Origin: Frigoribacterium sp. PhB116
Lineage (GTDB): Bacteria; Actinomycetota; Actinomycetes; Actinomycetales; Microbacteriaceae
Length of the DNA: 64,000 nt
NCBI RefSeq assembly: GCF_004364285.1
Contig: NZ_SOBE01000002.1
Location: 496,001-560,000, forward strand
Direction: 5' to 3'
The position numbers and the translations under genes are program-made. This document shows positions 15,497 through 36,817 of this stretch, piece after piece; the first letter of the stretch is position 1; each line of letters starts with the position of its first letter. Below the pieces are notes generated by a model. The model saw only the letters and a list, made by a program, of their open reading frames with translations. It had not been told where the DNA came from and ran no database searches.

Positions 15497-15943
15497 TCAG
15501 TCGCCGACGAGCACGCCGATGGCGGCCTTGAGCGTGTCGCGGTCGCGACGGAGCTTGGCGACCTCGGCCTCGAGCTCCGCGAGGCGATCGGCGGACGCCT
15601 GGTCGGCGCCGTCGCCGCCCTTGGCGCTGGCGCCGCTGCCGGGCGGACGACCGCGTCGGGGCGCGGGCGCGGCGGCCGGCTCCTCCTGCGCGTCACCGTC
15701 GGTGCGCACGGCCGAGCCGTCGTCGGCGGTGTCGGCCGCCTCCTCGGCGATGACGGACGCCGCGGGGGCGTTCGCCTTCTCCCAGGCGCGGATCCAGCCA
15801 CGGAGCGACTGCTCGCCGACCTCGAACTGCTCGGCGGTCTCACGGATGATGGCGCGGTTGCCGGGCTCCGCCTCGCGGCGCTCCAGGACGCGGGCGAGCG
15901 ACTGCTCGCGCGTCTCGTCGGTGTACTTCTGCTCGAAGGGCAT
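15497..15943 (-). CDS. IS3 OrfA-like HTH protein with AT-hook-like motif
   Basis: The 148-residue protein begins with a transposase-type HTH (EQKYTDETREQSLARVLERR then FEVGEQSLRGWIRAWEK, about residues 4-60), as in IS3 OrfA. A low-complexity acidic/Ala region leads to PRRGRPPGSG (about 96-105), an AT-hook-like R-G-R-P core, and the protein ends in a coiled coil (LAELEAEVAKLRRDRDTLKA). No OrfB/DDE integrase partner or terminal inverted repeats are seen, so it looks like a domesticated single-gene DNA-binding protein. It is divergent from the helicase-like gene across an AT-rich spacer it might bind. Confidence 0.75.
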   Translation of the reverse strand: MPFEQKYTDETREQSLARVLERREAEPGNRAIIRETAEQFEVGEQSLRGWIRAWEKANAPAASVIAEEAADTADDGSAVRTDGDAQEEPAAAPAPRRGRPPGSGASAKGGDGADQASADRLAELEAEVAKLRRDRDTLKAAIGVLVGD

Positions 15944-16357: not shown

Positions 16358-19300
16358 GTGTGGCGCGCCGACAGACAGCATGACGACGACGACGACGGGA
16401 CCAGTCCCGGCGTCGCCCCGACGGGTGCGCCCGGGGGAGCAGCGTCCCCGGGCACGGTCAGCCTCGGCGACCCCGGCCTCGCGGTGGGCAACGTGGCCGA
16501 GCCGTCCCGCACCGGGTGGCGCGACCAGCTGAGCGTCGTGGGCGGCACCTCCACCCTGCTGCACTTCGGCGACGAGCAGCGGGCCCGCATCGAGCTCAGC
16601 ACCACCCACCCCGGCGGCCTCGCCCAGTTCATCACCGGCAAGACGACCCTGCTGTCGAGCCTCATCCGCGACGACCTCGCGCTCCGGACCGCCCGCGTCG
16701 CCGCCGGCGAGATCGCCGCGAAGGGCCTCGAGCTGAGCACCGTGCGCGGCATCGACGCCGTCCACCTCGCCATCGGCGTCGCCGCGTGGTCGTTCGCCGG
16801 CCGCGACCACCGCGCCCCCGTCCTGCTCCGCCCGCTCGCCATCCGGCGCCACGGCCGCGACTTCGAGGTCAAGCTGCTGGGCGAGCCGTTCCTCAACCCC
16901 GCGCTCTCCGACGCGCTGCACGACCAGTTCGACATCTCGCTCGACGCCGACGCGTTCGTCGCGCTCGCCGGCCGCGAGGGCGCGTTCACGCCCAACCCCG
17001 TGATCGACCGCCTCCGCGGCCTCACGGCGCACCTCGACTGGTTCACCGTGCAGCCGCGCCTCGTGGTGTCGACCTTCGCCGAGGTCTCGACCGAGATGGC
17101 CCTCGACGCCCGCGAGCTCGGCCACCCCGTGCTCGACGCGCTCGGCGGCAACGCCATGGCGATCCGCCAGGTGCAGGAGGGGTACCGCCCGACCACGGCG
17201 ACCCCCCAGGACGAGCGCAGCCCCGAGACCGATACCCTGCTGCTCGACGCCGACCCCGAGCAGGAGAACGTCGTCGCGCAGATCGCGGCCGGCGCCTCGG
17301 TCGTGGTCAAGACGCTGCCGGGCACCGGCGGCACGCAGACCATCGTCAACGCGATCGGCCGACTCGTGTCGCAGAACAAGCGGGTGCTCGTCGTCAGCGC
17401 TCGCCGCGCCTCCCTGCGAGGCATCACCGCCCGCCTCGCCGACATCGGCCTGCCCGGCGTCGCAGTCTCGCCGACCACGCTGCGCCGCGACGTCATCCGC
17501 GCCATCAGCCGCGACGAGAAGGCCACCCACCCGCAGATGGGCGAGGTCGACGACGCGCTCGTGCGCCTCCGCAAGGTGCTCGTCGACTACCGCGGCGCGC
17601 TGAGCCGACGTGACGACGGGCTCCGCGTGTCGGTGCTCGACTGCCTCACCGAGCTGTCGCGGCTCGCCCTGCTGCCCGCGCCTCCCGCGACCACCGCGCG
17701 CCTCAGCCGCCGCAGCGTCGAGGCGATGGTCGACGGCCGTCGCCGCGTCGCCGAGACGATGGTCAACGCCGCCAACCTCGGCGAGTTCCGCTACGGCCCG
17801 GGCGACTCGCCCTGGTACGGCGCGCGCTTCACCGACTCGTTCGGCGCCGGCGACGCCCACCAGCTCGCCAAGAACCTGCACCACCGCGACCTGCCCCGCC
17901 TGCTCGAGCGAGCGCAGGAGGTGATCGGCAGCACCCGGATGCGCCCCTTCGAATCGGTGGCCGAGCTGGGCGTCTACCTGCGCCTCCTCATCGAGATCCG
18001 CGACACGCTCGACAAGTTCCAGCCCGTGGTGTTCGACCGCTCCGTCGCCGAGCTCGTCGCGGCGACCGCGCCGAAGCGCGAGGCGCCCGACATGTCGAGC
18101 GCCAACCGCCGCCGCCTCAAGAAGCTCGCGAAGGAATACGTGCGGCCCGGGGTGCACATCGCCGACCTGCACAGCGCCCTGCAGCGCATCCAGCAGCAGC
18201 GCATCGCCTGGCAGCGCTACGTGGTCGCGGGCACGCCGCCCGAGGTGCCCACGGGGATCGCCGACGCGCACGTGCTGCACCAGCAGGTCAGCCAAGATCT
18301 GGAGCGCCTCGACTCGCCCCTCGGCCTCCGCGGCGACGACAGCCTGACCGAGATCGGCGTGGCCGAGCTCGGCCCGAAGCTGCGCGACCTCGCCGCTGAG
18401 AGCGACGTGCTGCAGAACCTGCAGGAGCGCACCGAGCTCATGACGACCCTGCGCGACCTCGAGCTTGCGCCGCTCATCACCGACCTCGCGAACCGCCACG
18501 TGCCCGAGCAGCAGGTCGCCGCCGAGCTCGAGCTCGCCTGGTGGCGCTCGGCGCTCGAGTCGCTGCTCGAGGCCGACCGTGCGCTGCTCGGGGCCAACAC
18601 CGCCATGCTCGACCGCCTCGAGGCCGACTTCAGGCTCGTCGACGAGGCGCACGCGGCCGGCAGCGCCCAGCTGCTCGGCTGGCAGCTGGCTGAGAACTGG
18701 AAGATCGGTCTCGTCGACTGGCCGGAGGAGGCGTCCGCCCTCAAGGCCCTGCTGCGCCAGCCGCACCTCACCGCCCGCCTGCTGCACGACGCCGCGCCGC
18801 ACCTCTCGCGCGCCATCGCCCCGGTCTGGCTGGCCTCGCCCTACGAGGTGCACACCATCGCCGACACGGTGCCGTTCGACACGGTCGTGCTCGTCGACGC
18901 CGGCGCGACGACCATCGCCGAGAACGTCGGGGCGATCCGCCGGGGCAAGCAGACGGTGGCCTTCGGCGACCCCGTGACGCAGACGCCCTCAGAGTTCGAC
19001 ATCGCCGTGACGCCCGGCAAGCAGCCGCCTCGTCACGACGAGGCGGAGCTCGACGCCCTGCACGCCGACAGCGCCCTCGCCCGCCTGTCCACCCTGCTGC
19101 CGACCCTCTCGCTGACCCGCAGCTACCGCGCCGGCGGAGAAGACCTCGCCGAGCTCGTCAACCGCCGCTTCTACGGCGGGCGCATCGAGTCGCTGCCCTG
19201 GGCGGGCAGCTTCCTCGGGCACGGCAGCATCGCGCTCGACTACGTCTCCGGCGGCACGGCCGTGCCCGACCCCGAGTCCGGTGCCGTCGAGAGCGTCGAC

Positions 19301-20125
19301 GCCGAGGTCGACCGCGTCGTCTCGCTCGTCGTCGAGCACGCGCGCACCCGACCGGCCGAGTCGCTCATGGTCATCACCGCGAGCGCGAAGCACGCCGTGC
19401 GCGTGCAGCAGGCCGTGCTCACGGCGGTGTCCGGCCACAAGGACCTGACGGAGTTCGTCGTCGGCGACCGGGGCGAGCCGTTCATGGTCGCCACGCTCGA
19501 GCAGAGCGTCGCCCAGAGCCGCGACCACGTGATCTTCTCGATCGGCTACGGGCGCACCCCGCACGGCCGCGTGCTCAGCGACTTCGGGCCGCTCGGCCAG
19601 CCCGGCGGGGAGCGTCTGCTCGCCGTCGCCATGACGCGGGCGCGTCGCTCGATGATCATCGTCACCTGCTTCCAGCCCGACGACATCGACGGCGGACGCA
19701 TGGGCCACGGCACCGTCGCGCTGTCCGAGATCCTCACCGAGGTCCAGGCGCGCACCAGCGCCGAGCACGTGCCGGACGACTCCGACCCGATGCTCGTCGA
19801 CCTGGCGCGGCGCCTCGAGGCGAAGGGCATCCCCGTCGCCCTCGGGCACCGCGGCAAGCTCGGGCTGGTCGCCGCCCACGACGGCGTCTGCGTGACCATC
19901 GAGACCGACACGACGCTGTCGCGCACGAGCCTCCGCGAGTCGCTGCGGGCCCGGCCGGAGACGCTGCGCCGCCTCGGCTGGCACTACGTCCGGGTGCACG
20001 CCTTCCAGCTGTTCACCGATCCCGACTCCGTGGCCGCACGGGTCGCCGAGGTGCTGGGGATCGACGGGACGCGCACGCAGGAGGTCCCGACGCTGTCGGC
20101 CCGCCAGCACGTCAACCGGCTCTGA
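16358..20125 (+). CDS. Large SF1-helicase-like protein with degenerate ATPase motifs and nuclease-like C-terminus
   Basis: The 1255-residue protein has an SF1/AAA_11-12-like framework: a Walker A-like LPGTGGTQT (about 320-328) in which the usual Lys is Gly-Thr-Gln, a Walker B-like VVLVDAGATT (about 843-852) with Ala in place of the Glu, and an intact-looking motif VI (VAMTRARRSMIIV, about 1090). The C-terminus (LRRLGWHYVRVHAFQLFTDP) resembles the REase_MTES_1575 endonuclease-like domain found behind such helicases. Related proteins occur across actinobacteria. GTG 16358 has TAAGGT six bases upstream. The partly lost ATPase residues suggest a binding rather than unwinding role, which is inference. 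Confidence 0.8.
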   Translation: MWRADRQHDDDDDGTSPGVAPTGAPGGAASPGTVSLGDPGLAVGNVAEPSRTGWRDQLSVVGGTSTLLHFGDEQRARIELSTTHPGGLAQFITGKTTLLSSLIRDDLALRTARVAAGEIAAKGLELSTVRGIDAVHLAIGVAAWSFAGRDHRAPVLLRPLAIRRHGRDFEVKLLGEPFLNPALSDALHDQFDISLDADAFVALAGREGAFTPNPVIDRLRGLTAHLDWFTVQPRLVVSTFAEVSTEMALDARELGHPVLDALGGNAMAIRQVQEGYRPTTATPQDERSPETDTLLLDADPEQENVVAQIAAGASVVVKTLPGTGGTQTIVNAIGRLVSQNKRVLVVSARRASLRGITARLADIGLPGVAVSPTTLRRDVIRAISRDEKATHPQMGEVDDALVRLRKVLVDYRGALSRRDDGLRVSVLDCLTELSRLALLPAPPATTARLSRRSVEAMVDGRRRVAETMVNAANLGEFRYGPGDSPWYGARFTDSFGAGDAHQLAKNLHHRDLPRLLERAQEVIGSTRMRPFESVAELGVYLRLLIEIRDTLDKFQPVVFDRSVAELVAATAPKREAPDMSSANRRRLKKLAKEYVRPGVHIADLHSALQRIQQQRIAWQRYVVAGTPPEVPTGIADAHVLHQQVSQDLERLDSPLGLRGDDSLTEIGVAELGPKLRDLAAESDVLQNLQERTELMTTLRDLELAPLITDLANRHVPEQQVAAELELAWWRSALESLLEADRALLGANTAMLDRLEADFRLVDEAHAAGSAQLLGWQLAENWKIGLVDWPEEASALKALLRQPHLTARLLHDAAPHLSRAIAPVWLASPYEVHTIADTVPFDTVVLVDAGATTIAENVGAIRRGKQTVAFGDPVTQTPSEFDIAVTPGKQPPRHDEAELDALHADSALARLSTLLPTLSLTRSYRAGGEDLAELVNRRFYGGRIESLPWAGSFLGHGSIALDYVSGGTAVPDPESGAVESVDAEVDRVVSLVVEHARTRPAESLMVITASAKHAVRVQQAVLTAVSGHKDLTEFVVGDRGEPFMVATLEQSVAQSRDHVIFSIGYGRTPHGRVLSDFGPLGQPGGERLLAVAMTRARRSMIIVTCFQPDDIDGGRMGHGTVALSEILTEVQARTSAEHVPDDSDPMLVDLARRLEAKGIPVALGHRGKLGLVAAHDGVCVTIETDTTLSRTSLRESLRARPETLRRLGWHYVRVHAFQLFTDPDSVAARVAEVLGIDGTRTQEVPTLSARQHVNRL

Positions 20126-20130
20126 CCGCG

Positions 20131-20382
20131 ATGACGGAGGTGACGAGCCCGCGCGACCCCGACTCAGGTCCCGCAGGAGGAGCGGGTCGGCCCGCCGACG
20201 ACCCCGCGGTCGTCGAGGCGATCGCGTCGGCCCCGCTCGTGGTGCGGCGTCGCGGCGGCCGGCGGGTCTCGACCGAACCGGTGCCCGGCAGCGATCCTGC
20301 TCCTGCACCCGAGCCTCCTCGGCACGCGTCGGGGGAGAACGACCGTCAGCTCCGCGACGACGTGCCGCCGCACTGGGGCTGA
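20131..20382 (+). CDS. Small conserved-type hypothetical protein (83 aa)
   Basis: The gene starts five bases after the helicase-like stop, so it is probably co-transcribed. The 83-residue product is disordered-looking (Pro/Gly/Asp-rich) apart from a central AVVEAIASAPLVVRRRGGRR segment and ends PPHWG. Proteins of this shape follow this helicase family in related actinobacteria as far as I recall, but no function is known. A strong bidirectional hairpin follows the stop. Confidence 0.65.
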   Translation: MTEVTSPRDPDSGPAGGAGRPADDPAVVEAIASAPLVVRRRGGRRVSTEPVPGSDPAPAPEPPRHASGENDRQLRDDVPPHWG

Positions 20383-20466: not shown

Positions 20467-20973
20467 TCAGCGGCTGCCGAGCGGTCCGTTCCCGAGGTTG
20501 ACGCTGCCGCTCGGGGTCGGGTCGGCGGCGTGGCTGCCGTGACCGGCGACGCCGGAGTCGACGCCCGACTGCGCCCGCAGCAGGTCTCGGATCTCGCTCA
20601 GCAGCTCGACGTCGGTCGGCGGCACGTCCGCCGGCGGCACGGTCTCGTCCGACTGCTTCGCGAAGGTGCGCTTCAGCAGGCTGTTCACCGGGAGCACGAG
20701 GCAGAAGTACACGACGGCGGCGATGATCAGGAAGTTGATCAGGGCACCGAGCACGGCACCGAACTTGAGCTCGGCTTCGGCGCCGCTCACCGTGGGGATG
20801 CTCACGATCAGGGCCTTGTCGAGCATCGACGCGTTGAACGCCGCACCGATCAGGGGGTTGAAGATGTTGGTCACGAGCGAGGTGACGATCGCGGTGAACG
20901 CGGCTCCGATGACCACGGCGACAGCCAGGTCGATCACGTTGCCGCGCAGGACGAATTCTTTGAAGCCCTTCAC
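20467..20973 (-). CDS. mscL: Large-conductance mechanosensitive channel MscL
   Basis: The 168-residue inner-membrane channel opens under membrane tension to release solutes during hypo-osmotic shock. TM1 is in GNVIDLAVAVVIGAAFTAIV with the pore-lining pattern, TM2 in ALINFLIIAAVVYFCLVLPV, and the C-terminal helix is VELLSEIRDLLRAQ. The final 30 residues are a Gly/Ser/Pro tail not needed for gating. GTG 20973 has an SD (GAAGGAG). It forms a same-strand block with the FmdB and 5-formyl-THF cyclo-ligase genes, a conserved actinobacterial arrangement. Confidence 0.96.
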   Translation of the reverse strand: MKGFKEFVLRGNVIDLAVAVVIGAAFTAIVTSLVTNIFNPLIGAAFNASMLDKALIVSIPTVSGAEAELKFGAVLGALINFLIIAAVVYFCLVLPVNSLLKRTFAKQSDETVPPADVPPTDVELLSEIRDLLRAQSGVDSGVAGHGSHAADPTPSGSVNLGNGPLGSR

Positions 20974-21052: not shown

Positions 21053-21418
21053 TCAGGAGGAGGAGCCGGAGCTCCCCGACGAGGAGCCGCCCGAGGACGA
21101 GCTCGACGACCCGCCCGAGGACGAGCCCGACCCGGTGGACGACGCGCCGCCTCCTGCGCTCTTCTCCTTCGCGCCCGACGACTTCTTGTCGGAGGACGAC
21201 GACGAGGTCGACGACGAGCTGGTCGAGGAGCTGCCGCTCCCGCTCCGGGAGTCGGTGCGGTAGAAGCCCGACCCGTTGAAGGTGACGCCCACGGGGCTGA
21301 ACACCTTGCGGAGCACGCCCTGGCAGACGGGGCAGACCGTCAGCGAGTCGTCGGTGAACGACTGGACGACGTCGAAGGCGTTGCCGCACTCGGTGCAGCG
21401 GTACGAGTAGGTGGGCAC
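21053..21418 (-). CDS. FmdB family zinc-ribbon regulatory protein
   Basis: The 121-residue protein starts MPTYSYRCTECGNAFDVVQS and continues to CPVCQGVLRKVFSPVG. The two CxxC pairs (residues 8/11 and about 29/32) form an FmdB-type zinc ribbon. The C-terminal half is a Ser/Gly/Lys low-complexity tail of about 65 residues, almost all Ser in places. FmdB-like proteins are putative regulators; the exact role is unknown. It lies 40 bases downstream of the cyclo-ligase gene and upstream of mscL. Confidence 0.92.
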   Translation of the reverse strand: MPTYSYRCTECGNAFDVVQSFTDDSLTVCPVCQGVLRKVFSPVGVTFNGSGFYRTDSRSGSGSSSTSSSSTSSSSSDKKSSGAKEKSAGGGASSTGSGSSSGGSSSSSSGGSSSGSSGSSS

Positions 21419-21457: not shown

Positions 21458-22036
21458 TCAGAACTCGTGGATGCCGCTGGGCGTGACGACGCCGTCGACG
21501 GGCTGGTCGTGACGCTCGCACGGCACCTGCTCCACGTACTCGGAATCGAACACCACAGCATAGACCGGCGGTCGCTTCTCCATCGATCCGAGGGTCTTGT
21601 CGAAGTAGCCTCGGCCCCAGCCCATCCGCATCCCCGTGTGGTCGACGGAGGCGGCCGGCACGATGATGAGGTCGACGTCGTTGATCGCCATCGGGCTGAG
21701 CACCTCGCCGACCGGCTCGGGCAGGTCGAACAGCCCGAGCGTCTCGGTCTCGCCGTCGCCGACGGCCCAGTCGAGCAGCCCGTCGGGACGGGAGATGGGG
21801 AACAGGACGCGGACGTCGTTCTCGTAGGCCCAGTTGAGGAACGGCCGGGTGTTCGGCTCGTCCGCGGTGGAGAGGTAGGCCGACACCGACCGGACGGAGA
21901 GCCCGGACGCGAGGTCGACCAGGTGCCTCGTCAGGCCCGCGGTCGCCTGGTCACGAGCGTGGTCGCCCTGGTTGCGGCGCCGCTGTCGCAGCTCCGCCCG
22001 GAGTGCGCGCTTGGCGTTGCCGACCTCGTCCGTCAT
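21458..22036 (-). CDS. 5-formyltetrahydrofolate cyclo-ligase
   Basis: The 192-residue enzyme converts 5-formyl-THF to 5,10-methenyl-THF with ATP in one-carbon metabolism. Visible features are the basic N-terminus AKRALRAELRQRR, VSAYLSTADEPNTRPFL, LIIVPAASVDHTGMRMGWGR (the conserved P-A-x-D-x-x-G-x-R-x-G-x-G-x-G-Y-Y/F-D motif, ending GYFDKTL) and a C-terminal HDQPVDGVVTP. ATG 22036 has TACCAT seven bases upstream, and the divergent galU start is 67 bases away, so the two share a compact promoter region. Confidence 0.94.
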   Translation of the reverse strand: MTDEVGNAKRALRAELRQRRRNQGDHARDQATAGLTRHLVDLASGLSVRSVSAYLSTADEPNTRPFLNWAYENDVRVLFPISRPDGLLDWAVGDGETETLGLFDLPEPVGEVLSPMAINDVDLIIVPAASVDHTGMRMGWGRGYFDKTLGSMEKRPPVYAVVFDSEYVEQVPCERHDQPVDGVVTPSGIHEF

Positions 22037-25349: not shown

Positions 25350-28300
25350 TTATGCGTCGTCGGAACGCCTCTCAGAGTCGGCATCGTGGTGTTCCGCCTC
25401 GCGCGCGAAGTCCTCAGCAATACCGCGAAGAATCCTTGCCGTGCGGGGCCACTTGTTGGTGATCTGCGCTGACCATGCTCGGTAAGTTTCTTCCAACGTC
25501 CTTTCCTGGGTTCCGCCGTCAAAAAGATCCCGAGAGTGCACACCACGCTGGTTGTAGCGGCCGATCGCGAGGCCCGCGTCGAGCCGGGCGCTGCCGACGT
25601 TTTCGATGATCTCGCGCACTGGCTCGGCAGGCCAGGCGCCATCGGTACCGGTAGGGCTCGTGGCGAGAACCTCACCAATGACCTCGTCACCGATAGACAT
25701 CCGCGCGGTCTCAGAGAAGGCGAGCCGTGCCGCTCGGACCCAAGTCGTGAGATGGTTCACGTCGACCGTGCCGTCAGGTCGCCCACCAGGAATCGCGCTC
25801 CATTCGTGCAGCACACTCCACGAAAGGTGCGCTCGCGCTTGATCTTGGGCGGACGGATCGCCAGCTGGCTCGTTCTCGCCTCGGTAGACCATGCTGACGA
25901 GCGCGACGAACTCTGTTGGGTCCTCGTTCAGGAGCCCGTAAAGGGCTGCTGATGGCCGATGATCATGGAGAAGCTCAAAAAAGGTGAACTCGAACGCCGG
26001 CAGTCGTGGGTGATCAGGTGCCTCCTGCTCTAGGAAGGTGAGTACCTGTTCCAAGTGGTGCGACGTTGCCTGATGGTCCGTTAGTGGTTCGTGCGTCATG
26101 ACGAGTGCATCCACAACGAATTCGACGATGGAGATTCCTGGCTTAGGTTCCGAGGTCAACGAAGCCGAAAGTAAGTCGAGCGCTCGCCAAGGACGCTCGT
26201 GTCCACAGAGAAGCCGGAGGGCTTCCTCGAGTTCTCCCGGCTCCACGTGAAAAGGGCGGACGCTCTTCCAGTAGCTGTCTCGAAGCGGAGCTTCAAGAGT
26301 CGAAGCCCATTCCCACTGGGCTCGCCCAAACGGAAGCGTGCCCAAGACATTTACCTGGGCGCGCTCACTCTCGACGTGACCGGAACTGAGAATTGTCTCA
26401 GCTTCTGACAAGCCGTTCTCGGCAATGCGGCTCCCTACAAAAGCGACTGCAACCTGGGCAAGGTTCTGCTGATCGCTATCGAGCCAGTCGAGGAGTTGGC
26501 CGTCAGGCGCATCGTTTCGAGCGCCCAGAACGGTGCCCAGCGATCGTGCGTCTTCGACTGCGAGGGCGAGCCTAGTGAGCGCATTTATTCCCTGCGAAAG
26601 AACAGCTTCCACCGCGTTGCGCTGCAGACGGTCTCGCTCGATTCGGTACTTGTCGGTTGACCGAGGTGTACCCGGAATCGGGGCCCGCCATCCGAAGGCG
26701 CTGACAAAACGCATTGGATCGTCGGCTGGCTCGATGACAGCAGCGATGGCCTCGAGACGTCGCAAGTGTTTTTCAGGCATCGCCCACTGACTCGTGCTGA
26801 ACTCACGATGCTGGAGAGTCTCGTTCTCGATCGTCTGCCAGACGGCGGTTCGTTCGGCTTGTGACCAGGTACCCTCTAGCGCAGCCCGCTCGAGTGCGTC
26901 AAGAGACCCGTCTCGAAAGGCCGGCGGTAGCTCGTCGATCTTCGGGATGAGGTCACGCCATCGATCGGCATTGGCTCCGGCAGCGTCTGTGGACAGAGCT
27001 GTCATAGCTTCCGTGAAACGGCCCCAGTCCGCCCACGTCACCGACTCCCTCGTGGCGGTCCAATCCCGGTGCTTCGGCTTCTGCGGCGTTAGTGCCGTCG
27101 CATGGCGAGAGGGCAATAGGGCGAGGATGAGCTTCCACCCAACCTGCGGGTCTCGGAGATGGAGCTGGCGAGCAAACTCGACCTTGTCGTCGACGCTCGC
27201 ACCGCTATTCATAAGCCAGCCGAGTTCGACACTTGCGAGACTCTCGGCAGGACGGTTGCTAAGTCGTCCACCCGGGTCGATGTGTGTCAGCTTGGCTAGC
27301 ACCGATGCGCTGCGAGAGAAGTAGACGGGGGACCAACAGAGCAGTTCGAGCGCCCAGAGAAGATTGGGGTGAGGGGACGATGGGCCCCAGAAGTCGCCGG
27401 ACTTGTCTTGGAAGAGGTCCGCTGACTGCGGTTCTGCGGCACCGAGATCACTGTCCACGAAATCCAGAAAGATATCCGGTGACGCCTCGGCCAGAGCGGC
27501 AAACGATCTTGAGAGTTGACTCCAGCCAGAACCCCTGCGGGTGCTCGCCTCTGTTAGTAGTCGGTGAACGATCTGGTCGATCTGACGTTGTATCTGCAAG
27601 GTGGGTAAATCTTCGCTGGTGGCTGCCGCGAGGGTGAGGGCGTTTGCCATTCCACGCTTCAGAGTCTCGGAAGTTTTTGGCCGTGTCCCGCTCGCCTGGG
27701 CCTGCATGCGCTCGAAACTGCCCATGCCGTCGTATGGGTCTACTTCAAGAAGCACCTTCGTCACGACGTCGGACCAGACTCGGTAGTGGTCCGGGCTTAG
27801 CTTGGGGAGGAGGCTGAGCGCCGCCTCCGCGGGCGACGCGAGAGTCCAGTTCCCACCAGAGCGCACGAACGGGGGATCCGGTTTGGTGGCGAGCGAACTC
27901 AGGAGGAGTTCGATCTGCGCCCTAGGTATTCCGGTGAGTTGTTCGATGACCGCTTGGTCGCCTTCCGAGGCCGTCCATGAGCCAGCGGAAATCAGCGGCG
28001 CAAGAACTGCGGCTGTATCTGCGTGTTCAACCCAGGGAGGAAGCTGGTATCTAGACTCGCGCCCGATCCGTCGGAACAAGGCTGGCATGCTCCGGCGAGC
28101 GAGGGCCACGAGGCTCGCTCGGTCCTGATCAGGAACTTCGCTCAATGCTGCCGCGCCCTCCACGCGTCCGATTCGTGGGAGGGCTATGTGACGGTCTCCC
28201 CGCACGATGTCGGCCGTTCCTGCTGGAAGAATCACCTGGTGGCCGCGATCAATCGCAGCACCCAGATCGAGGCCATCCCTATGAAGGGGAATCAGGATCA

Positions 28301-29288
28301 GCTGCTCGCGCGATTCGGAGATGCGCTGCCATGAAGACTCGTCTTGTACGACGACCATTCGCTCGCGAGCATGGTCGACATGTGCGATCGCGGCGTAGGC
28401 AAAGGCGATGACCTCGTCGACCCACGGGGAAGAGATCGTTATGGGCTCAGCGTTCGTCCCCGCCCTGAGGAAGCTTTCTAGCTTCTCCACTTCGGACTCG
28501 CGACCGGCGATGAAAAAGCTCTCTGGAAGTCTCGGGCTGGTGCGTGACGTGAACCGATCCCACCATGTCGTGATGGTGTATGCGTCGCGCGGCCGGTAGC
28601 CCAGGCGTTCGGACAGCCAATAGTGGACGGCTGGTGCTGTGAGCAACCATGCCTCTATCGAGTGAGCGTCTAGTGCGCGCACCCCTGCGAAGTGTCCGTC
28701 GCGAGCTCGCTCGGCGGCCCAGTCTTGACCTCCTGCCCAATTTCGCGGCGTTATGAACACGAAGGTCGCGCGGCAGTCCTCAGCAGATGGAGGGACTCGC
28801 TTGTCGTAATCGCTTTGCGCTTTCTGTCTCGGTTTTGCGTCCGTGCCGAGCTCGAATCGAAGCGGTCCGTTCGGCAGAACCAGCGCGCTGATTGAGGCAG
28901 CGGTGCCGTCCCACCCAGGTGCCGCCACGCCCTCATGGGCACGCATCTCCAGATCCGTGACACCGGGCGTGCTGGCGAGGAGGCGGCGTACGAGGTCAGG
29001 GAACGCGCCCTTAGCATCGAGCGTGGCGCCCCATCGATCAATGTCTAGCGCGCGAGCAAGCTCTGGCCCGATGGTGCTGAAGGAAGGGGCGGCCACGGAC
29101 TTCGATTCGCCCCGCTCTCGAGCTACTCGTTCGACGTACAGGCGTGAGAATCGGTGTGCCGAGGATCCAGGCACTCGGGAAGACACCAAGACTCCCGATT
29201 TCACCCAATTGCGGACGGTGTTCACGTGAACACCAAGAGCCATGGCTGTCTGTCGCACGTTCAGAAATTCGCCCGCTTCGTCATTCAT
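25350..29288 (-). CDS. Large HTH-nuclease-STAND-like protein, candidate defence effector (1312 aa)
   Basis: Residues 8-60 form a MerR/excisionase-type HTH (FLNVRQTAMALGVHVNTVRN followed by WVKSGVL). Residues 80-220 look like a PD-(D/E)xK nuclease: Asp127 in APGWDG, Glu146 in LRFELGTDAKPRQKA with Lys152 and Lys156, then DYDKR and TFVFITPRNW. From about 255 (FFIAGRESEVEKLESFLRAG) the start resembles STAND/NACHT-type modules, but the Walker A position reads ITISSPWVDEV and lacks GxxGxGK[ST]. About 900 mainly helical, repeat-like residues follow. TAGGTT is six bases before ATG. No family name is recognised. A nuclease joined to a large sensor-like region in an island fits antiphage proteins, which is inference. 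Confidence 0.8.
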   Translation of the reverse strand: MNDEAGEFLNVRQTAMALGVHVNTVRNWVKSGVLVSSRVPGSSAHRFSRLYVERVARERGESKSVAAPSFSTIGPELARALDIDRWGATLDAKGAFPDLVRRLLASTPGVTDLEMRAHEGVAAPGWDGTAASISALVLPNGPLRFELGTDAKPRQKAQSDYDKRVPPSAEDCRATFVFITPRNWAGGQDWAAERARDGHFAGVRALDAHSIEAWLLTAPAVHYWLSERLGYRPRDAYTITTWWDRFTSRTSPRLPESFFIAGRESEVEKLESFLRAGTNAEPITISSPWVDEVIAFAYAAIAHVDHARERMVVVQDESSWQRISESREQLILIPLHRDGLDLGAAIDRGHQVILPAGTADIVRGDRHIALPRIGRVEGAAALSEVPDQDRASLVALARRSMPALFRRIGRESRYQLPPWVEHADTAAVLAPLISAGSWTASEGDQAVIEQLTGIPRAQIELLLSSLATKPDPPFVRSGGNWTLASPAEAALSLLPKLSPDHYRVWSDVVTKVLLEVDPYDGMGSFERMQAQASGTRPKTSETLKRGMANALTLAAATSEDLPTLQIQRQIDQIVHRLLTEASTRRGSGWSQLSRSFAALAEASPDIFLDFVDSDLGAAEPQSADLFQDKSGDFWGPSSPHPNLLWALELLCWSPVYFSRSASVLAKLTHIDPGGRLSNRPAESLASVELGWLMNSGASVDDKVEFARQLHLRDPQVGWKLILALLPSRHATALTPQKPKHRDWTATRESVTWADWGRFTEAMTALSTDAAGANADRWRDLIPKIDELPPAFRDGSLDALERAALEGTWSQAERTAVWQTIENETLQHREFSTSQWAMPEKHLRRLEAIAAVIEPADDPMRFVSAFGWRAPIPGTPRSTDKYRIERDRLQRNAVEAVLSQGINALTRLALAVEDARSLGTVLGARNDAPDGQLLDWLDSDQQNLAQVAVAFVGSRIAENGLSEAETILSSGHVESERAQVNVLGTLPFGRAQWEWASTLEAPLRDSYWKSVRPFHVEPGELEEALRLLCGHERPWRALDLLSASLTSEPKPGISIVEFVVDALVMTHEPLTDHQATSHHLEQVLTFLEQEAPDHPRLPAFEFTFFELLHDHRPSAALYGLLNEDPTEFVALVSMVYRGENEPAGDPSAQDQARAHLSWSVLHEWSAIPGGRPDGTVDVNHLTTWVRAARLAFSETARMSIGDEVIGEVLATSPTGTDGAWPAEPVREIIENVGSARLDAGLAIGRYNQRGVHSRDLFDGGTQERTLEETYRAWSAQITNKWPRTARILRGIAEDFAREAEHHDADSERRSDDA

Positions 29289-29556
29289 GACACGAACCTA
29301 GCTAATTGTGGACTTTGTGTGTACAGCGATCAGGGCGCTTATCGCTGCCCAGAGGATTCGGCGTCAGGCAGCCTCGGCTGCATTGAGTAAGGAGGCGTCC
29401 CATTCGAGTGCGCCGACGTCTCTGTTCACTGCTCCAAAGTGAACTCGAAGGCGCGGGCCACGCCCGCCAGGCAGCCTGCCGGACATCCTCGCGCGCGGGT
29501 CTTAACGCCCTGGCCGGATTGCGGCACGCCGACGAATCAAGAAGGCCGCGACTGGA
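29289..29556. promoter_or_regulatory. Promoter region of the large island gene
   Basis: On the minus strand the gene is preceded by AATTAGCTAGG then TTCGTGTC directly before ATG 29288, giving a -10 TAGGTT with a six-base spacer. CACAA occurs twice just upstream (29304-29322 region). The remainder to 29556 holds no gene I can support. Confidence 0.5.
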
Positions 29557-30669
29557 CTATCCGCTCAGGCCACGAACGGACTTATTGCTTGTGCGGCCGC
29601 AAATCCCCCACCGCCAACAAGCAGCAACCGTAACCCGCCACCAGCCAAGTAGCGGCAGGAGAAGACTCCCTAGGATCCCCGCCAAAACGCCCCAGAAGAA
29701 AGTCACCCGGCCGGCATCTCGTTCCGCCCTCGAATCAGTGATGGTGCCGGATGGGGTCAGAGTCGCGCGAGATGTTTCGACCCACGTCAATGGTTCACGC
29801 GTGATTGGCTCGATGGACACCGACTCGAGCCGGTCTGCAGGGGAGAGTCGTCCGTAGCTGACGGTGATCGACAAAGGACTAGGAACCTTCAGCCCTGTGA
29901 AATCGTCGATAACAATTTCGGCCTCGTCACCGATCGTGGCCGGCAAGTAGGTCGTTCCGACGGTGGGTAGCTGGAACACTTCAGTTTGGCCTGACTTGAC
30001 GAGCGTCGATGCATAGGCCGAGATGTCGAGGTACGCGATTCCGCCACCATGTTCGCCGACGGGCTTGAGTCGCCCGGATACGACGACGATGTCTTCCTTA
30101 ACCTCGTTTGAGGCCCAGGCGGAATCGGGTGAGCCGCTGGTCTCGATACAGGCCAGCTCCGGAACCGCGCTAACAGTCGCCGATGAACATCTGCCATTCG
30201 AGCTCTGTCGGTCACTCTGATCTGCAAGGTCGTCTCGCGGAAGAGCGGATCCACCAAGTGCTATGAAAAACGTTGGCATGTCATTCTGGTCGAGGCCTTC
30301 GGCCAGGACGCGAACGACGTACGCATCTGAGGCGTAGTCCTCATTCTCCATTGTCGCCAAGGCCGAGGTGACCTCAACGTTGAGCTGAGCTCTAACGTCG
30401 GGACGATCAAAGTAGAGATTGATCGATCCAGGCGGCGGAGGATCGCCGATCGTCGGCAGAGCGGCGTCGAACTGATTTACGAGCCCCACAGTCCCGAGAC
30501 CAAGAGCCACGGTCCCCAGGACTGCGATCACCAACCTTGTCGTTGGAAACCGCGGCGGAGCGGCCGAGCTGGCCGGTCCCGAAATGGTTGCCGCGGGCGT
30601 CCTGACCAGACACCGTGCTAGCGGGAGTAGTAGCAAACCTCGAACGAGTTTGGAGGTCTTTGAAGACAC
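29557..30669 (-). CDS. Two-TM envelope protein of unknown function (island gene)
   Basis: The predicted 370-residue product has one TM helix at about 46-64 (VIAVLGTVALGLGTVGLV), an extracytoplasmic beta-rich region of about 250 residues with two Cys (RCSSAT and ELACIETSG), and a second TM helix near the C-terminus (VTFFWGVLAGILGSLLLPLL), followed by a short Arg/Trp-rich tail. No domain is recognised. The start is uncertain: GTG 30669 lies only two bases after TATACT, so a leaderless mRNA would begin downstream, and TTG at codon 12 or GTG at codon 47 are alternatives. It shares promoter sequence with the next island gene. Confidence 0.7.
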   Translation of the reverse strand: MSSKTSKLVRGLLLLPLARCLVRTPAATISGPASSAAPPRFPTTRLVIAVLGTVALGLGTVGLVNQFDAALPTIGDPPPPGSINLYFDRPDVRAQLNVEVTSALATMENEDYASDAYVVRVLAEGLDQNDMPTFFIALGGSALPRDDLADQSDRQSSNGRCSSATVSAVPELACIETSGSPDSAWASNEVKEDIVVVSGRLKPVGEHGGGIAYLDISAYASTLVKSGQTEVFQLPTVGTTYLPATIGDEAEIVIDDFTGLKVPSPLSITVSYGRLSPADRLESVSIEPITREPLTWVETSRATLTPSGTITDSRAERDAGRVTFFWGVLAGILGSLLLPLLGWWRVTVAACWRWGICGRTSNKSVRGLSG

Positions 30670-30853
30670 GAAGTATAAGCTAGCGGATGGGCTGTCGTGC
30701 GCATTTAGTTAGGGGCAGATGCTCCGCCACGGGACGTAGTTCGGAGACTCCCTTGCAGCGCAGGCACGGCGTGGCGGCGGCCAGCGTGGGGCGTCTGGCG
30801 CGACTGGGCCGTGCGGGCAGACGGGCCGACCGCTGGTCCGCGAAGATGGAGTC

Positions 30854-32422
30854 GTGCCCCTCGACTCCCGTGACCCTGACCTGCTCGCGCGCCTCCGGGC
30901 CGACCTCGCGTCCTCCGACTTCACGGTCGACCGGCTGACGGGGCCCGACGCCTGGGGCGCGAGCGCGGGCGCGGCACTGTTCCGGGGAGAGCGCGTCGCG
31001 GCCCGTCGTGCGCTCGTGAGGAGCGCCTCCCGCGTGCCGTCGCTCCGTCCGGCGGCGACGCTGGCGTCGCTGCTCATCCTGGGATGGCCGCAGCCGCTCG
31101 CCGACGTGGAGGCGGCGCTGCCGACCCTGGGGGCGGCAGGCGCTGCCGCGCTCGGCCTGATCGAGGCCTCCGACGACGAGGTGCGCGCGCTGGTCGACCT
31201 GCGGCCGTACGCGTTCGTCGACGCGTCCGGCGAGGCCAGCTGGTGGATCGCCTCCGACCTCGGCGAGCTGGCCCTCGGGGGCGCGCTCCGCGAGGACCAC
31301 GTGCTGGGGGTCGGCGGGGCGTCGGCGACGCTGGCCGGGCTGATGATCCCGCGCACCGTCGACAGCGCGCTCGACCTCGGCACGGGCTGCGGCATCCAGG
31401 CGCTGCACGTCGCCCGGCACGCCCGCCGGGTCGTCGCCACCGACATCTCGCAGCGCGCCCTCGACTTCGCGGCCTTCAACGCCGCCCTCAACCTCGTCGA
31501 CGGCATCGAGTTCCGGCTCGGCAGCCTCTTCGAGCCCGTCGAGGGCGAGTTCTTCGACCACGTCGTCTCGAACCCGCCGTTCGTCATCACGCCCCGGGCC
31601 GAGGGCGTGCCCGAGTACGAGTACCGCGACGGCGGCATGGTCGGCGACGACCTCGTCGCGTCCGTCGTGTCGCAGGTCGGCGCCCACCTCACGCCGGGAG
31701 GCGTCGCGCAGCTGCTCGGGAACTGGGAGACAGGAGGGGCGGACGCGGCTGCCGGGAAGCGCGGGGCGTACTCGGTGGCCGACTGGGTCGCCCGCGGCGG
31801 CGTCCCGCTCGACGTGTGGGTGGTCGAGCGCGAGCTGCAGGACCCGGCCGCCTACGCCGAGACCTGGATCCGCGACGGCGGCACCCGTGCGGGCACCGCC
31901 GACTTCGAGCGGCTCTACGAGGCCTGGCTCGGCGACTTCGAGCAGCGGGGCGTCGTCGAGGTCGGCTTCGGCTACGTGACCCTGAGGCGACCTCTCGACG
32001 CGGCGACGGAGCCCGTGGTCCGCACGGAGCGCCTCCTCGGGGGCCTCGGCTCGAACGACGTCGGCCTCGGTCGGCACCTCGGGGCGACGCTCGACGCCGT
32101 CGACCTGCTCCGCTCGCTCGACGACGACGCCCTGCTGGGCACCCGTCTCACGGTCGCCGGCGACGTCACGGAGGAGCGGCACTACTGGCCCGGCAACGAC
32201 GACCCCACGGTCATCACGCTGAGGCAGGGAGGCGGCTTCGCCCGGTCGGTCGAGTCGGGCACGGCCCTCTCGGCGCTGGTGGGCGCCTGCGACGGCGAGC
32301 TCAGCGTCGGCGCGATCGTGGGCGCGCTCGCCCACCTGCTCGAGGCCGACGAGGGCGCGCTCACGGCCGAGCTCCTGCCCCGGGTGCGCGAGCTCGTGAC
32401 GACGGGGATGCTCCGCGCCTGA
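30854..32422 (+). CDS. Class I SAM-dependent methyltransferase (MTS/HemK-like)
   Basis: The 522-residue protein has a long N-terminal helical domain, then a Rossmann methyltransferase core with motif I DSALDLGTGCGIQALHVARH (about 170-190) and the catalytic signature VVSNPPFVIT (about 238-247), the NPPF type seen in RsmC/PrmC-like enzymes that methylate amide or exocyclic amino nitrogens. A C-terminal domain of about 170 residues follows. Similar full-length proteins are common in actinobacteria; the substrate is unknown. GTG 30854 has GAAGAT six bases upstream. It is the first core gene after the island. Confidence 0.9.
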   Translation: MPLDSRDPDLLARLRADLASSDFTVDRLTGPDAWGASAGAALFRGERVAARRALVRSASRVPSLRPAATLASLLILGWPQPLADVEAALPTLGAAGAAALGLIEASDDEVRALVDLRPYAFVDASGEASWWIASDLGELALGGALREDHVLGVGGASATLAGLMIPRTVDSALDLGTGCGIQALHVARHARRVVATDISQRALDFAAFNAALNLVDGIEFRLGSLFEPVEGEFFDHVVSNPPFVITPRAEGVPEYEYRDGGMVGDDLVASVVSQVGAHLTPGGVAQLLGNWETGGADAAAGKRGAYSVADWVARGGVPLDVWVVERELQDPAAYAETWIRDGGTRAGTADFERLYEAWLGDFEQRGVVEVGFGYVTLRRPLDAATEPVVRTERLLGGLGSNDVGLGRHLGATLDAVDLLRSLDDDALLGTRLTVAGDVTEERHYWPGNDDPTVITLRQGGGFARSVESGTALSALVGACDGELSVGAIVGALAHLLEADEGALTAELLPRVRELVTTGMLRA

Positions 32423-32466
32423 TCGCCGAGCGGGCAGGGCCGCGGTGCCCGCTCGGCTCCGACGGG

Positions 32467-33417
32467 CTAGAGGTCGTCGCCCGTCTCGTCGTCGGCCGCC
32501 GCTGCCTCCTGCTTGCCGACCCGGTCGCCCCAGGTGCGCCAGCTGTACTCGGGCACGAAGCCGAGCAGGTCGCGGGCCTTGTCGCTGCTGAGCAGGGAGT
32601 CCGTGCCCTCGACGGCGGCCCGGCGCTCGACGGTCGGCCAGAACTGGTCGGCGAGCAGGGCGGTGGGCGTGTTCATGACCGTGTCGGTCGCGGCGATGAT
32701 GAACGCCTCGAAGCCGACGAGGTCGCTCTCGAGCGCCTTCCGCACGGCCTGGGCACCGTCGCGGGCGTCGATGTACGAGAAGAGGTTGAACGTCTTCTTC
32801 TCGGGGGTCTCGTCCCAGGGGTACTCGGAGTAGTCGCCGTCGTCCATGACGTTCGAGAAGCGGAGGCCGATCATCTTCAGCTGGCGGTCCCAGCGGGTGA
32901 AGTGGCGGGCCATCTCCTCGTCGAGGGCCTTGCCGAGCGAGTACGACGACTCGGGCCGCACGGCGTACTCCTCGTCGAGGGGCAGGTAGGGCGGGTCGAG
33001 GTCGAACGGGATGCCGAGCAGGGTCTCGCTCGAGGCCCAGACGACGTTGCGGATGTGGGCCGCACGGGCTGCGGCGAACACGTTGTAGCTGCCGGTGACG
33101 TTGTTGTGGAAGAGGGTCGCGTTCGGCACGAGCCCGGGCGCCGGGATCGCCCCGAGGTGCACGACGGCGTCGATCGAGTCGTAGCGGTCGTCGACGTGGG
33201 TGAGCGCCTGCAGCACCTGGCCGTAGTCGGACAGGTCGACCTGCACGTACGTGACGCCCTCGACCGGGTCGGGGCTCGGCACGCGGTCGAGCAGCACGAC
33301 CTCCCAGCCGTGGGCGGCGAGGTCGCGGACGACGGCTCGGCCGAGCTTGCCGCTGCCTCCGGTGACTGCGACGCGGAGGGCCGCGGGGGACGGGGTGGAT
33401 GACGACATCGTCTGCAC
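32467..33417 (-). CDS. NAD(P)-dependent epimerase/dehydratase (extended SDR)
   Basis: The 316-residue enzyme begins with the Rossmann motif LRVAVTGGSGKLGRAVVRDL and has VDLSDYGQV, VVHLGAIPAPG, the Ser/Tyr/Lys catalytic set (WASSET and SYSLGKALDEE) and the EYSWRTWGDRVGKQE C-terminus. It acts on an unidentified sugar-nucleotide or similar substrate; uronate dehydrogenase-like activity is possible. The ATG is preceded by AGGAAGA. It is a single gene convergent with the methyltransferase gene. Confidence 0.9.
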   Translation of the reverse strand: MQTMSSSTPSPAALRVAVTGGSGKLGRAVVRDLAAHGWEVVLLDRVPSPDPVEGVTYVQVDLSDYGQVLQALTHVDDRYDSIDAVVHLGAIPAPGLVPNATLFHNNVTGSYNVFAAARAAHIRNVVWASSETLLGIPFDLDPPYLPLDEEYAVRPESSYSLGKALDEEMARHFTRWDRQLKMIGLRFSNVMDDGDYSEYPWDETPEKKTFNLFSYIDARDGAQAVRKALESDLVGFEAFIIAATDTVMNTPTALLADQFWPTVERRAAVEGTDSLLSSDKARDLLGFVPEYSWRTWGDRVGKQEAAAADDETGDDL

Positions 33418-33571
33418 TCTTCCTGGGGTCGGGGCGGCGCTCGGTGCGCCTGCTCCTGTCTACCGTGTCGGCGCTGGACGTGCGCGACGGAGCCGCGGGT
33501 ACGGTCGTGCGGGACGGGGCCGTCCGGGCCCCTCCGCCGCCACGGCGACGGACGACACGAGGAGGCGCCCC

Positions 33572-33760
33572 ATGAGCGACACCCAGAGCCACGACCCCGC
33601 AGACCACGACGTCGACCCCCGCCACGACTCGGCCGCCGTGCACGGGGACGACCCGGCGCCCGTCGAGGAGCACGCCGGCTCGGCCGCCGACGACGCCGCT
33701 CGCGAGGGCGCCGTCGAGCAGGTGGACGACACGCTCGGCGGGCACATCCCGCTGCGCTGA
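33572..33760 (+). CDS. Small acidic hypothetical protein (62 aa)
   Basis: The 62-residue product is strongly acidic and His/Asp-rich (MSDTQSHDPADHDVDPRHDS at the start, GGHIPLR at the end) and probably disordered. ATG 33572 has a perfect SD: AGGAGG with a six-base spacer, in this case part of an AGGAGGCGC nonamer used as a genuine ribosome-binding site. A small GCGGAGC/GCTCCGC hairpin (33772-33788) follows the stop. No family is recognised. Confidence 0.65.
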   Translation: MSDTQSHDPADHDVDPRHDSAAVHGDDPAPVEEHAGSAADDAAREGAVEQVDDTLGGHIPLR

Positions 33761-34134
33761 GCCCGTTGGCCGCGGAGCGCAGCTCCGCAGCCCCTCGGTG
33801 CCCCCAGTTCTAGTCGGACGCATGAATCACCCGCCGTTCACCCCACCGCGCCGAAGAGGCGCGGGCTACAGTGCAGTGTGCTCACCGGCTGGTTACCGGG
33901 GCACATCGCGCCCGTCATCGTCGACGTGCGACCGAGCGTGGTCTCCTGATCCGATCCCGCCCGGCCCCGTCCGAGGGCGCGACCGCACGCCTCCGCCCGA
34001 GCCCTGCTCGGCCACGGGGGCGTGTGCTGTCTCGGGACTCGCCGTCTCGCCCCTCCCGCGTGCCCGGACCGGTGCCGACCGCCTCCGGCCCGCCTCGCCT
34101 CGCTGTCGCTGGCATGGGGCAGGATCGACACATC
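33761..34134. other. Leader region of the Ski2-like helicase gene
   Basis: This 374-base stretch holds a GCGGAGC-GCA-GCTCCGC hairpin (33772-33788), a possible leaderless mini-ORF at 33878-33949, and CG-rich sequence with no supported gene. In-frame upstream extension of the helicase to 33871 has poor coding character. Confidence 0.5.
33878..33949 (+). CDS. Possible leaderless 23-aa peptide (leader ORF)
   Basis: TACAGT (33867-33872) lies five bases before a GTG that opens a 23-codon frame (MLTGWLPGHIAPVI, ending RPSVVS) upstream of the helicase gene. The promoter geometry equals that of genes in this window believed to be leaderless, and the frame contains a rare TTA codon. It could be a regulatory uORF or chance. 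Confidence 0.25.
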   Translation: MLTGWLPGHIAPVIVDVRPSVVS

Positions 34135-36714: not shown

Positions 36715-36817
36715 CGTTGTCGGCGGCCCGGCCGACCACGGCTGCCCGTCACCCCCGGAGCGACCCTCCGGTGCACCGCCCCCGGCGACCCGTCGCCGGG
36801 CCCCCCGAGGAGGACCC

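Follow-up and report, generated by a model that had tools for sequence, protein, structure and literature searches.

A window of 64,000 nucleotides (positions 496,001 to 560,000 of contig NZ_SOBE01000002.1 of Frigoribacterium sp. PhB116) was analysed, and one long gene in it, for a helicase-like protein with altered catalytic motifs and a nuclease-like tail (hereafter the pseudo-helicase), was followed together with the small gene directly behind it. The order of genes at this locus is a conserved block, namely the helicase gene (+), the small gene (+), mscL (-), a gene for an FmdB-type protein (-), and the gene for 5-formyltetrahydrofolate cyclo-ligase (5-FCL, -), and the coordinates are collected in Table 1. 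The protein is discussed below as a possible ATP-independent scaffold that would bind nucleic acids.

Table 1. Features of the locus, in window coordinates.
Feature	Position	Strand	Residues	Remarks
Pseudo-helicase gene	16358..20125	+	1255 codons	one open frame, GTG start
N-terminal DUF4011-like / 1B region	16493..17212	+	46-285	approximate boundaries; Pfam, orthologue L171, AlphaFold2
RecA1-like domain	17213..17557	+	286-400	approximate boundaries; profile matches, AlphaFold2, structural neighbours
Motif I (Walker A)	17315..17341	+	320-328	LPGTGGTQT; Gly in place of Lys, P-loop scaffold retained
All-helical insert between RecA domains	17558..18727	+	401-790	
Insert core	17945-18277	+	530-640	relative constraint raised in pseudo lineages
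RecA2-like domain	18728..19717	+	791-1120	approximate boundaries; profile matches, AlphaFold2, structural neighbours
Motif II	18884..18916	+	843-853	VVLVDAGATTI; catalytic Glu replaced by Ala
Motif III-like	18956..18988	+		VAFGDPVTQTP; alignment with relatives
Motif VI	19616..19657	+		LLAVAMTRARRSMI; arginines kept; alignment with relatives
Vsr-like endonuclease (MTES_1575) remnant	19790..20062	+	1145-1235	E-x-D kept, upstream Asp lost
Follower microprotein gene	20131..20382	+	83 aa	starts 5 bases past the helicase stop; tail NDRQLRDDVPPHWG (20338-20379)
mscL	20467..20973	-		first conserved downstream neighbour; synteny marker
FmdB-type zinc-ribbon protein gene	21053..21418	-		synteny marker
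5-FCL gene	21458..22033	-		synteny marker
Divergent helix-turn-helix gene	15497-15943			Pfam HTH_Tnp_1 just under cut-off

Relatives reading PPGTGKSQT and DEASQ were aligned with the protein to set the columns of the helicase motifs. At the positions of the Walker A Lys and the motif II Glu of an active superfamily 1 (SF1) helicase, Gly and Ala, respectively, were found in the window protein, and motif VI, which reads LLAVAMTRARR from residue 1087, was kept, as the original prediction had it from the sequence alone. The family alignment consisted of 138 rows, not independent species, of which one was gapped at each of the Lys and Glu columns; it holds the window gene twice (q and L001) and also a row, L095, from a metagenome-assembled genome (MAG) titled Acidobacteria. 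The 137 rows with a residue at the Lys column read Gly (112), Ala (8), Tyr (7), Ser (6), Val (2), Ile (1), or Thr (1), and those at the Glu column read Ala (136) or Ser (1), so that both substitutions are fixed (Lys in 0/137, Glu in 0/137). The Asp preceding the Glu column was present in 136 rows and replaced by Gly in one, the first and second arginines of motif VI were kept in 130/137 and 136/137 rows, and P321, G322, G324, T326, and Q327 were each at least 97% identical across the family; the P-loop is thus conserved around an absent catalytic residue. Judged by these two substitutions, the ATPase of the window lineage is dead, and ATPase activity itself would have been lost with them. Residual nucleotide binding, or slow hydrolysis, at some non-canonical site is improbable: identity of at least 97% extends over the PGTGxTQT loop and the upstream D299 and Q302 (a pair which we take to resemble a Q motif), barring the changed column and weaker flanks, but neither Lys nor Glu survives in any of the 137 rows, and the GxGxTQT pattern is gone from rows of families f3, f4, f9, f10, f14, and f20.

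The fold was examined with profiles and a predicted structure. A profile of relatives matched the solved structures of SMUBP-2/IGHMBP2, DNA2, NAM7/UPF1, and SEN1. An AlphaFold2 model of residues 46-1245, made from an alignment of 62 sequences, was obtained with a predicted local distance difference test (pLDDT) score of 91.6 and a predicted template modelling score (pTM) of 0.81, and has two RecA lobes and a 1B region arranged as in UPF1 and IGHMBP2. Its top structural neighbour was Ighmbp2 (4b3g_B; Z 20.5, root-mean-square deviation (rmsd) 4.4, 507 residues), followed by Upf1 (2xzp; Z 20.3, rmsd 4.5, 506 residues) and Dna2 (Z 19.6). By this model the window protein is a UPF1-like protein of superfamily 1B (SF1B) whose helical insert is large and whose tail is Vsr-like. 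A PROSITE-type P-loop string, AQFITGKT, lies at residues 89-96, and a string of this type was present somewhere in 75/138 family rows (ungapped count); outside the family the commonest readings of this region are of the AQLLAGRxTRL type. It was rejected as a second Walker A and is read as a chance string, being located in the N-terminal, non-RecA part, at the end of a modelled helix and in the coil behind it; a true Walker A elsewhere in the protein was something that the original prediction had named as counting against it.

The C-terminus had originally been likened to the restriction endonuclease (REase) domain MTES_1575. Against that Pfam model it scored 22.6 bits, under the gathering score of 38.2, and all Pfam matches of the window protein (MTES_1575, AAA_12, DUF4011 at residues 130-185, and AAA_11) were likewise sub-threshold. 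The assignment holds because the syntenic orthologue L171, which exceeds the gathering scores of AAA_11, AAA_12, DUF4011, and MTES_1575, reached 73.9 bits against the last of these. The Asp of the IDLAV strand and the E-x-D element are active-site residues of REase_MTES_1575; in the window protein E-x-D is kept as IETD, and LGLVA replaces IDLAV with loss of the upstream Asp. This Asp was gone in all displayed rows of f1 (the Microbacteriaceae by its named matches, some of which are MAGs whose titles are vague or odd). Both the nuclease Asp and Glu were retained in most rows of f5, f6, f7, and f18, with exceptions that include L136, L140, L174, L178, and L201, and the Glu was lost in rows of f3, f4, f9, f10, f14, and f20. 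The tail is therefore present as a domain, and its active site, by the residues that remain, is broken in the window lineage.

Both Lys and Glu are retained in twelve distinct orthologues at the syntenic site, which come from two further families of the order that holds the Microbacteriaceae (hereafter the order): L171 and L172 in f5, and L198, L199, L200, L202, L264, L265, L267, L269, L287, and L288 in f18 (L267 denotes the genome of row L226, and L269 that of row L225). They read GKSQT or GKTQT and DEAS, and all are flanked by mscL and FmdB genes. Canonical homologues at the same columns, which the original prediction had named as evidence that would count against it, were thus found outside the family and none within it; such orthologues elsewhere do not make the window protein active, and show that its inactivation is most likely secondary. 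Because they hold the same locus, the ancestral protein there was most likely an active enzyme.

Trees were computed with FastTree (145 rows) and with IQ-TREE under the C20 mixture (54 rows, motif I and II columns excluded), in both cases with Shimodaira-Hasegawa-like support only. In both trees the degenerate L201, L268, and L230 with L266 grouped with canonical f18, apart from the large clade of the remaining order families sampled, some f18 forks being weak in the FastTree tree (support 0.24-0.37). The fewest changes of Lys state over the 54 rows were four, one of them outside the order, with the direction of change inferred from canonical outgroups. A single clade of all 33 order rows without Lys was rejected by the approximately unbiased (AU) test (p = 0.0173), which is moderate evidence because the group was named after the tree had been seen and long branches are involved. 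The fragmentary f5 genome L229, which lies outside the 54-row tree, reads PPGTGATQT and may be a further Lys loss. Inactivation looks secondary and repeated, with at least four state changes. Outside the order, homologues in f95 and f83 have Lys replaced by Arg and an altered motif II (L306, L308, and L315 of f95 and L307 of f83 read GRTQT or GRSQT at Walker A), and at the f95 loci L340, L342, L343, and L346 the homologue adjoins the same microprotein-mscL block.

The distribution was tallied by genome searches. Matches were present in 197/199 Microbacteriaceae genomes and 85/85 genera, and in 236/248 order genomes at E 1e-30 (18 of these genomes belong to the Microbacteriaceae). Two of the 12 order misses (G216 and G419) were searched again at E 1e-20 and both matched, as did 20/20 and 27/27 chosen genomes in a second search at this threshold, the near-complete genomes of 0.8-0.9 Mb G015, G249, and G372 among them. 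At E 1e-15, 19/246 genomes of a phylum sample matched. The search for named relatives gave 122, of which 80 were kept, and the named matches belong to Frigoribacterium, Curtobacterium, Cryobacterium, Agreia, other Microbacteriaceae, and MAGs. A few of the matches carry one stop; otherwise long open frames were found across the order. These genome tallies are of best matches, and a match in a single genome may be a fragment or a paralogue (G124, with a best E of 7.4e-27, is an example), so orthology was argued from synteny. Among the order loci displayed with flanks, at least one of mscL, FmdB, and 5-FCL adjoins the helicase gene in 33/39 and 24/25 (57/64), five of the second set of 25 being Microbacteriaceae genomes; mscL is inverted in L164 and L193. 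None of the three markers was found at 10/10 outgroup loci (L254-L263, several of them short).

A named record of Actinomyces oris (NZ_CP116225.1), the one record behind the naming of the Actinomycetaceae, has the order universal stress protein, 'DNA helicase' WP_271289505.1, hypothetical protein WP_271289504.1, mscL, SAF, 5-FCL, glp, and GNAT. This block (373016-392264) sits on a 415-kb sequence labelled plasmid, which suggests a piece of chromosome or a chromid. Upstream, no gene was conserved across the order when 54 representatives were clustered, the widest clusters spanning 9 loci (a gene resembling universal stress proteins) and 7 loci. A gene that reads as FHA-like abuts or overlaps the start of the pseudo-helicase gene in the f4 loci L169, L277, and L283. 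The divergent helix-turn-helix (HTH)/AT-hook gene, which the original prediction had proposed as a possible component, was found in 3/26 family loci and 0/39 other order loci displayed, the three being Frigoribacterium (L033, L036, and L108), and it was dropped as a component. Further along the window, at 25350-36993 (-), lie three very long open reading frames (ORFs) of 1312, 1047, and 1051 aa and a shorter one of 370 aa. PADLOC gave no match to any of the four at E 1e-5, and Pfam a weak one below its cut-off (HTH_17) to the first alone.

Throughout the order, the gene is apparently a chromosomal core gene that has been passed on vertically at one site. A mobile or accessory defence gene would be expected to occur patchily and at varying places; here presence is near-universal and the neighbours are the same in most loci displayed. 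A domesticated protein that is still immune, acting as an ATP-free sensor of phage or foreign DNA that for instance triggers another effector, is unlikely on this evidence, since accessory defence genes are not typically near-universal, placed mostly at a single chromosomal site, and kept in very small genomes as well, even though defence proteins supply the nearest models (PADLOC PDC-S37, E 4.5e-92, and Hhe, E 1.6e-35; NCBIfam ProA, 294.6 bits) and distant relatives occur on plasmids (312 records, all below 60% identity, tallied irrespective of motifs). A phage origin was considered and rejected, one weak phage record having been found.

Of known systems, the PADLOC candidate PDC-S37 (PDLC05009) is the best PADLOC profile of the window protein, matching in two stretches of which the better spans 628-1233 (307.7 bits; the profile shows no cut-off), and it is also the best for two canonical orthologues (825.2 and 819.0 bits). 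The window protein differs in its dead motifs, in being a near-universal core gene, and in a helical insert motif specific to the order. ProA (NF058533) gave a long partial match over the helicase and the tail (E 1.4e-87), and Hhe (NF042953; PADLOC PDLC02194) did the same (NCBIfam 127.2 bits, E 4.3e-37); the window protein is far under the curated scores of 1500 and 2000 bits, respectively, of these models, which have 1903 and 1797 positions, and has lost the catalytic residues. The canonical orthologues L171 and L198 also fall short of both curated scores (L171 against ProA, 798 bits). Others have assigned Hhe to SF1_Upf1 (PMC10925250). MTES_1575 of Microbacterium testaceum, which gives its name to the REase type, likewise combines an SF-I helicase with a Vsr-type REase in one protein, and is a distinct and far longer protein that adds a transglutaminase, HEPN, and two winged HTH domains, with the REase at 1810-1990 (PMC3710099). 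With UPF1, IGHMBP2, DNA2, and SEN1 the protein shares the SF1B core fold (Z 16.9-20.5 over 422-521 residues); these are solved working helicases, including nucleotide and nucleic-acid complexes, and here Lys and Glu are missing.

Within the own genome one other match was obtained, L002 (G000:C1:42702-43808, -), a short ORF of 378 aa that resembles the C-terminal half of a canonical relative; it keeps HYRS and QGDERD and is perhaps a remnant of a ProA- or Hhe-like gene. An alternative to the scaffold is that the protein is a pseudo-subunit whose partner, a working helicase or nuclease, is encoded at another place and is regulated by it in the manner of pseudokinases. Kept motif VI arginines, a kept P-loop scaffold, and a whole predicted fold with catalytic residues lost would suit such a subunit, but a dedicated active paralogue was not seen beside the gene and the own-genome search listed no further match than L002, so this explanation, too, is judged unlikely.

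Pseudo-helicases are rarely described. PriA is a superfamily 2 protein, and Utp25 is another pseudohelicase. Deinococcus radiodurans PriA is reported to have no ATPase or unwinding activity and to keep DNA binding (PMC4504706), so binding without ATPase has a precedent. It resembles the present case as a bacterial helicase that lost its motifs and is nevertheless retained in the genome, and differs in being a replication-restart protein; the window protein is an SF1B protein of DUF4011 type whose catalytic residues were lost several times. Like other pseudohelicases the window protein has homologues with intact motifs, has lost these motifs itself, and is retained, and the original reading of it as a pseudo-helicase is backed by sequence, by the predicted fold, and by fixation in the family. 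In Pseudomonas aeruginosa another large DUF4011 gene, distinct from this one, is core (PMC10250203). The word 'helicase' does not appear in the main text of a paper on essential genes of Bifidobacterium breve (PMC5514069), and a literature search whose coverage left out most subscription journals returned no description of this pseudo-helicase family. Pseudo-helicases as a kind are already known, and this one is unusual among them in being order-wide, syntenic with canonical orthologues, and repeatedly inactivated.

Selection was estimated as the ratio of nonsynonymous to synonymous substitution rates (dN/dS) by the Nei-Gojobori method in 27 chosen pairs. Values in the Microbacteriaceae were 0.016-0.157 in 11 pairs; L221/L223 gave 0.030 with saturated dS, and L216/L217 was not computable. 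In f6 the ratio was 0.040-0.205 (four pairs), in f20 0.096, and in f4 0.073 (saturated) and 0.203; four canonical pairs gave 0.131-0.263. The window lineage is not decaying and is under strong purifying selection, and some other pseudo lineages may be relaxed. Slow decay, in which a once-useful helicase is eroding and has been retained by chance, is accordingly very improbable for the window gene: rows without Lys have longer branches, and dN/dS is raised in f3/f14, f9, and f14 pairs, but the frames are long across the order, the family ratio is low, the gene is kept in reduced genomes, and relative constraint on the insert is rising.

The last point was measured as a constraint ratio, the mean identity of the insert core divided by the mean identity of both RecA regions, with column bootstrap intervals that understate uncertainty, the rows being related by descent. 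The ratio was 0.46 (0.38-0.55) in canonical outgroups (7 rows), 0.85 (0.73-0.96) in canonical order rows (10 rows), 1.07 (0.96-1.20) in the family (8 rows), 1.16 (1.02-1.35) in other pseudo families (21 rows), and 1.31 (1.15-1.53) in f18 pseudo rows (4 rows). After the losses, relative constraint shifts from the RecA domains to the helical insert. An insert motif, RRRL..A.E..RPG...DLH.AL....QR..W, is present in canonical and degenerate order rows alike and therefore predates the catalytic losses; it is partly present in L303 and mostly missing from the outgroups L254, L256, L258, and L259. Modelled alone, the insert had a pLDDT of 92.9. A Foldseek comparison with solved structures was negative at E 0.001, and the best VIA-align Z for the insert, 6.9, is within chance level for helical models; the insert may still have a known fold.

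Directly after the helicase gene, small proteins of about 50-120 residues are encoded across the order, usually with an arginine-rich stretch and an ND.RL....PPHW-like tail. A strict PPH[WYF] tail was found beside 184/196 distinct order loci; this is the deduplicated strict count, a looser tail count over 232 order loci having taken in duplicates and L002. Six of the 12 misses lack the tail and six are variants, among the misses L070, L177, L167, and L285 with PPH tails of other form or place. For comparison, across all loci 226/35639 stop-to-stop frames of at least 40 aa have PPH[WYF] within 14 residues of their end, and most of these are presumably the microprotein genes themselves. The most frequent arrangement, in 54/151 loci tallied, has the small gene overlapping the helicase stop by 4 bases, spacings being approximate since starts were taken as the longest open reading. 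The microprotein also lies beside 12/12 distinct canonical orthologues, and the gene of the hypothetical protein WP_271289504.1 of A. oris ends in NDARLRRDVPPHWG (read from the DNA). No tailed microprotein of this kind was found in 21 outgroup or distant loci (14 distinct). Seven members, the window's included, had no NCBIfam match and five no Pfam match; the window microprotein has one sub-threshold Pfam match.

The microprotein profile (A3) was searched against class genomes with 40 candidates scored per genome, and 90/148 matched at E 0.01, the canonical helicase query matching 28/148 at E 1e-30. All of 28 chosen loci that were read (L322-L343 and L346-L351) show a PPH tail, like DD.RLL.ERPPHWG, in which PPH is followed by an aromatic residue or His and which is in many cases preceded by LP.QTSDD.D.GWGE; mscL or FmdB is near the microprotein in 21 of the 28. 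The microprotein family is more widespread than the helicase, and partly independent of it, across the class Actinomycetes. Of the small system originally proposed for the pseudo-helicase and its 83-residue follower, a conserved neighbour is borne out, often with the 4-base overlap in relatives (not in the window); a physical partnership of the two in a complex is put forward here as a hypothesis.

Returning to the scaffold reading, the protein would bind nucleic acids as a scaffold that needs no ATP and would derive from a defence-type helicase-nuclease, and this account is given about an even chance. Its ancestor would have been an active helicase of UPF1 type fused to a Vsr-like nuclease, as in PDC-S37, ProA, and Hhe; the ATPase and the nuclease site would have been lost in the window lineage, with the whole protein kept by purifying selection. 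Both RecA-like lobes might join with the 1B region and the nuclease-like tail in a passive clamp on nucleic acid, which is plausible, the conserved helical insert might serve as a working surface contacting a partner, and the microprotein with its basic patch and PPHW tail would be a candidate partner or adaptor. Near-universal retention and a conserved small neighbour, despite the lost ATPase residues, suggest an undescribed, ATP-free housekeeping role.

A broader proposal is tentative and leans toward the doubtful side: an ATP-independent core machine of Actinomycetes, in which a defence-type helicase-nuclease, fixed beside an ancient PPH[WYF]-tailed microprotein, turned to housekeeping. Its essential function would have moved to the new helical insert, letting at least four lineages shed the ATPase in parallel with the protein staying indispensable, and the microprotein tail would be a general docking peptide that works in helicase-free Actinomycetes as well.

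Several findings weigh against the scaffold reading. The microprotein is missing beside 4/4 distinct f20 loci and at L211/L278 (a genome of 0.93 Mb), and at least 62 of the 90 microprotein-positive class genomes lack a helicase match; because the microprotein is common where the helicase search was negative, the adjacency may reflect inherited synteny and not partnership. Counts of state changes cannot separate loss from gain, and long branches are in play. Relaxed-looking pseudo pairs occur (L164/L193, f3 vs f14, 0.548; L182/L183, f9, 0.401; L192/L193, f14, 0.312), and the constraint-ratio interval of the family touches that of the canonical orthologues. The function of the insert is a guess, since the insert lacks a convincing solved relative.

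The locus offers a natural experiment on the passage from an enzyme to a scaffold, and on the possible turn of a defence-type gene to housekeeping. The class-wide PPH[WYF] microprotein family provides a direct handle on finding the pathway.

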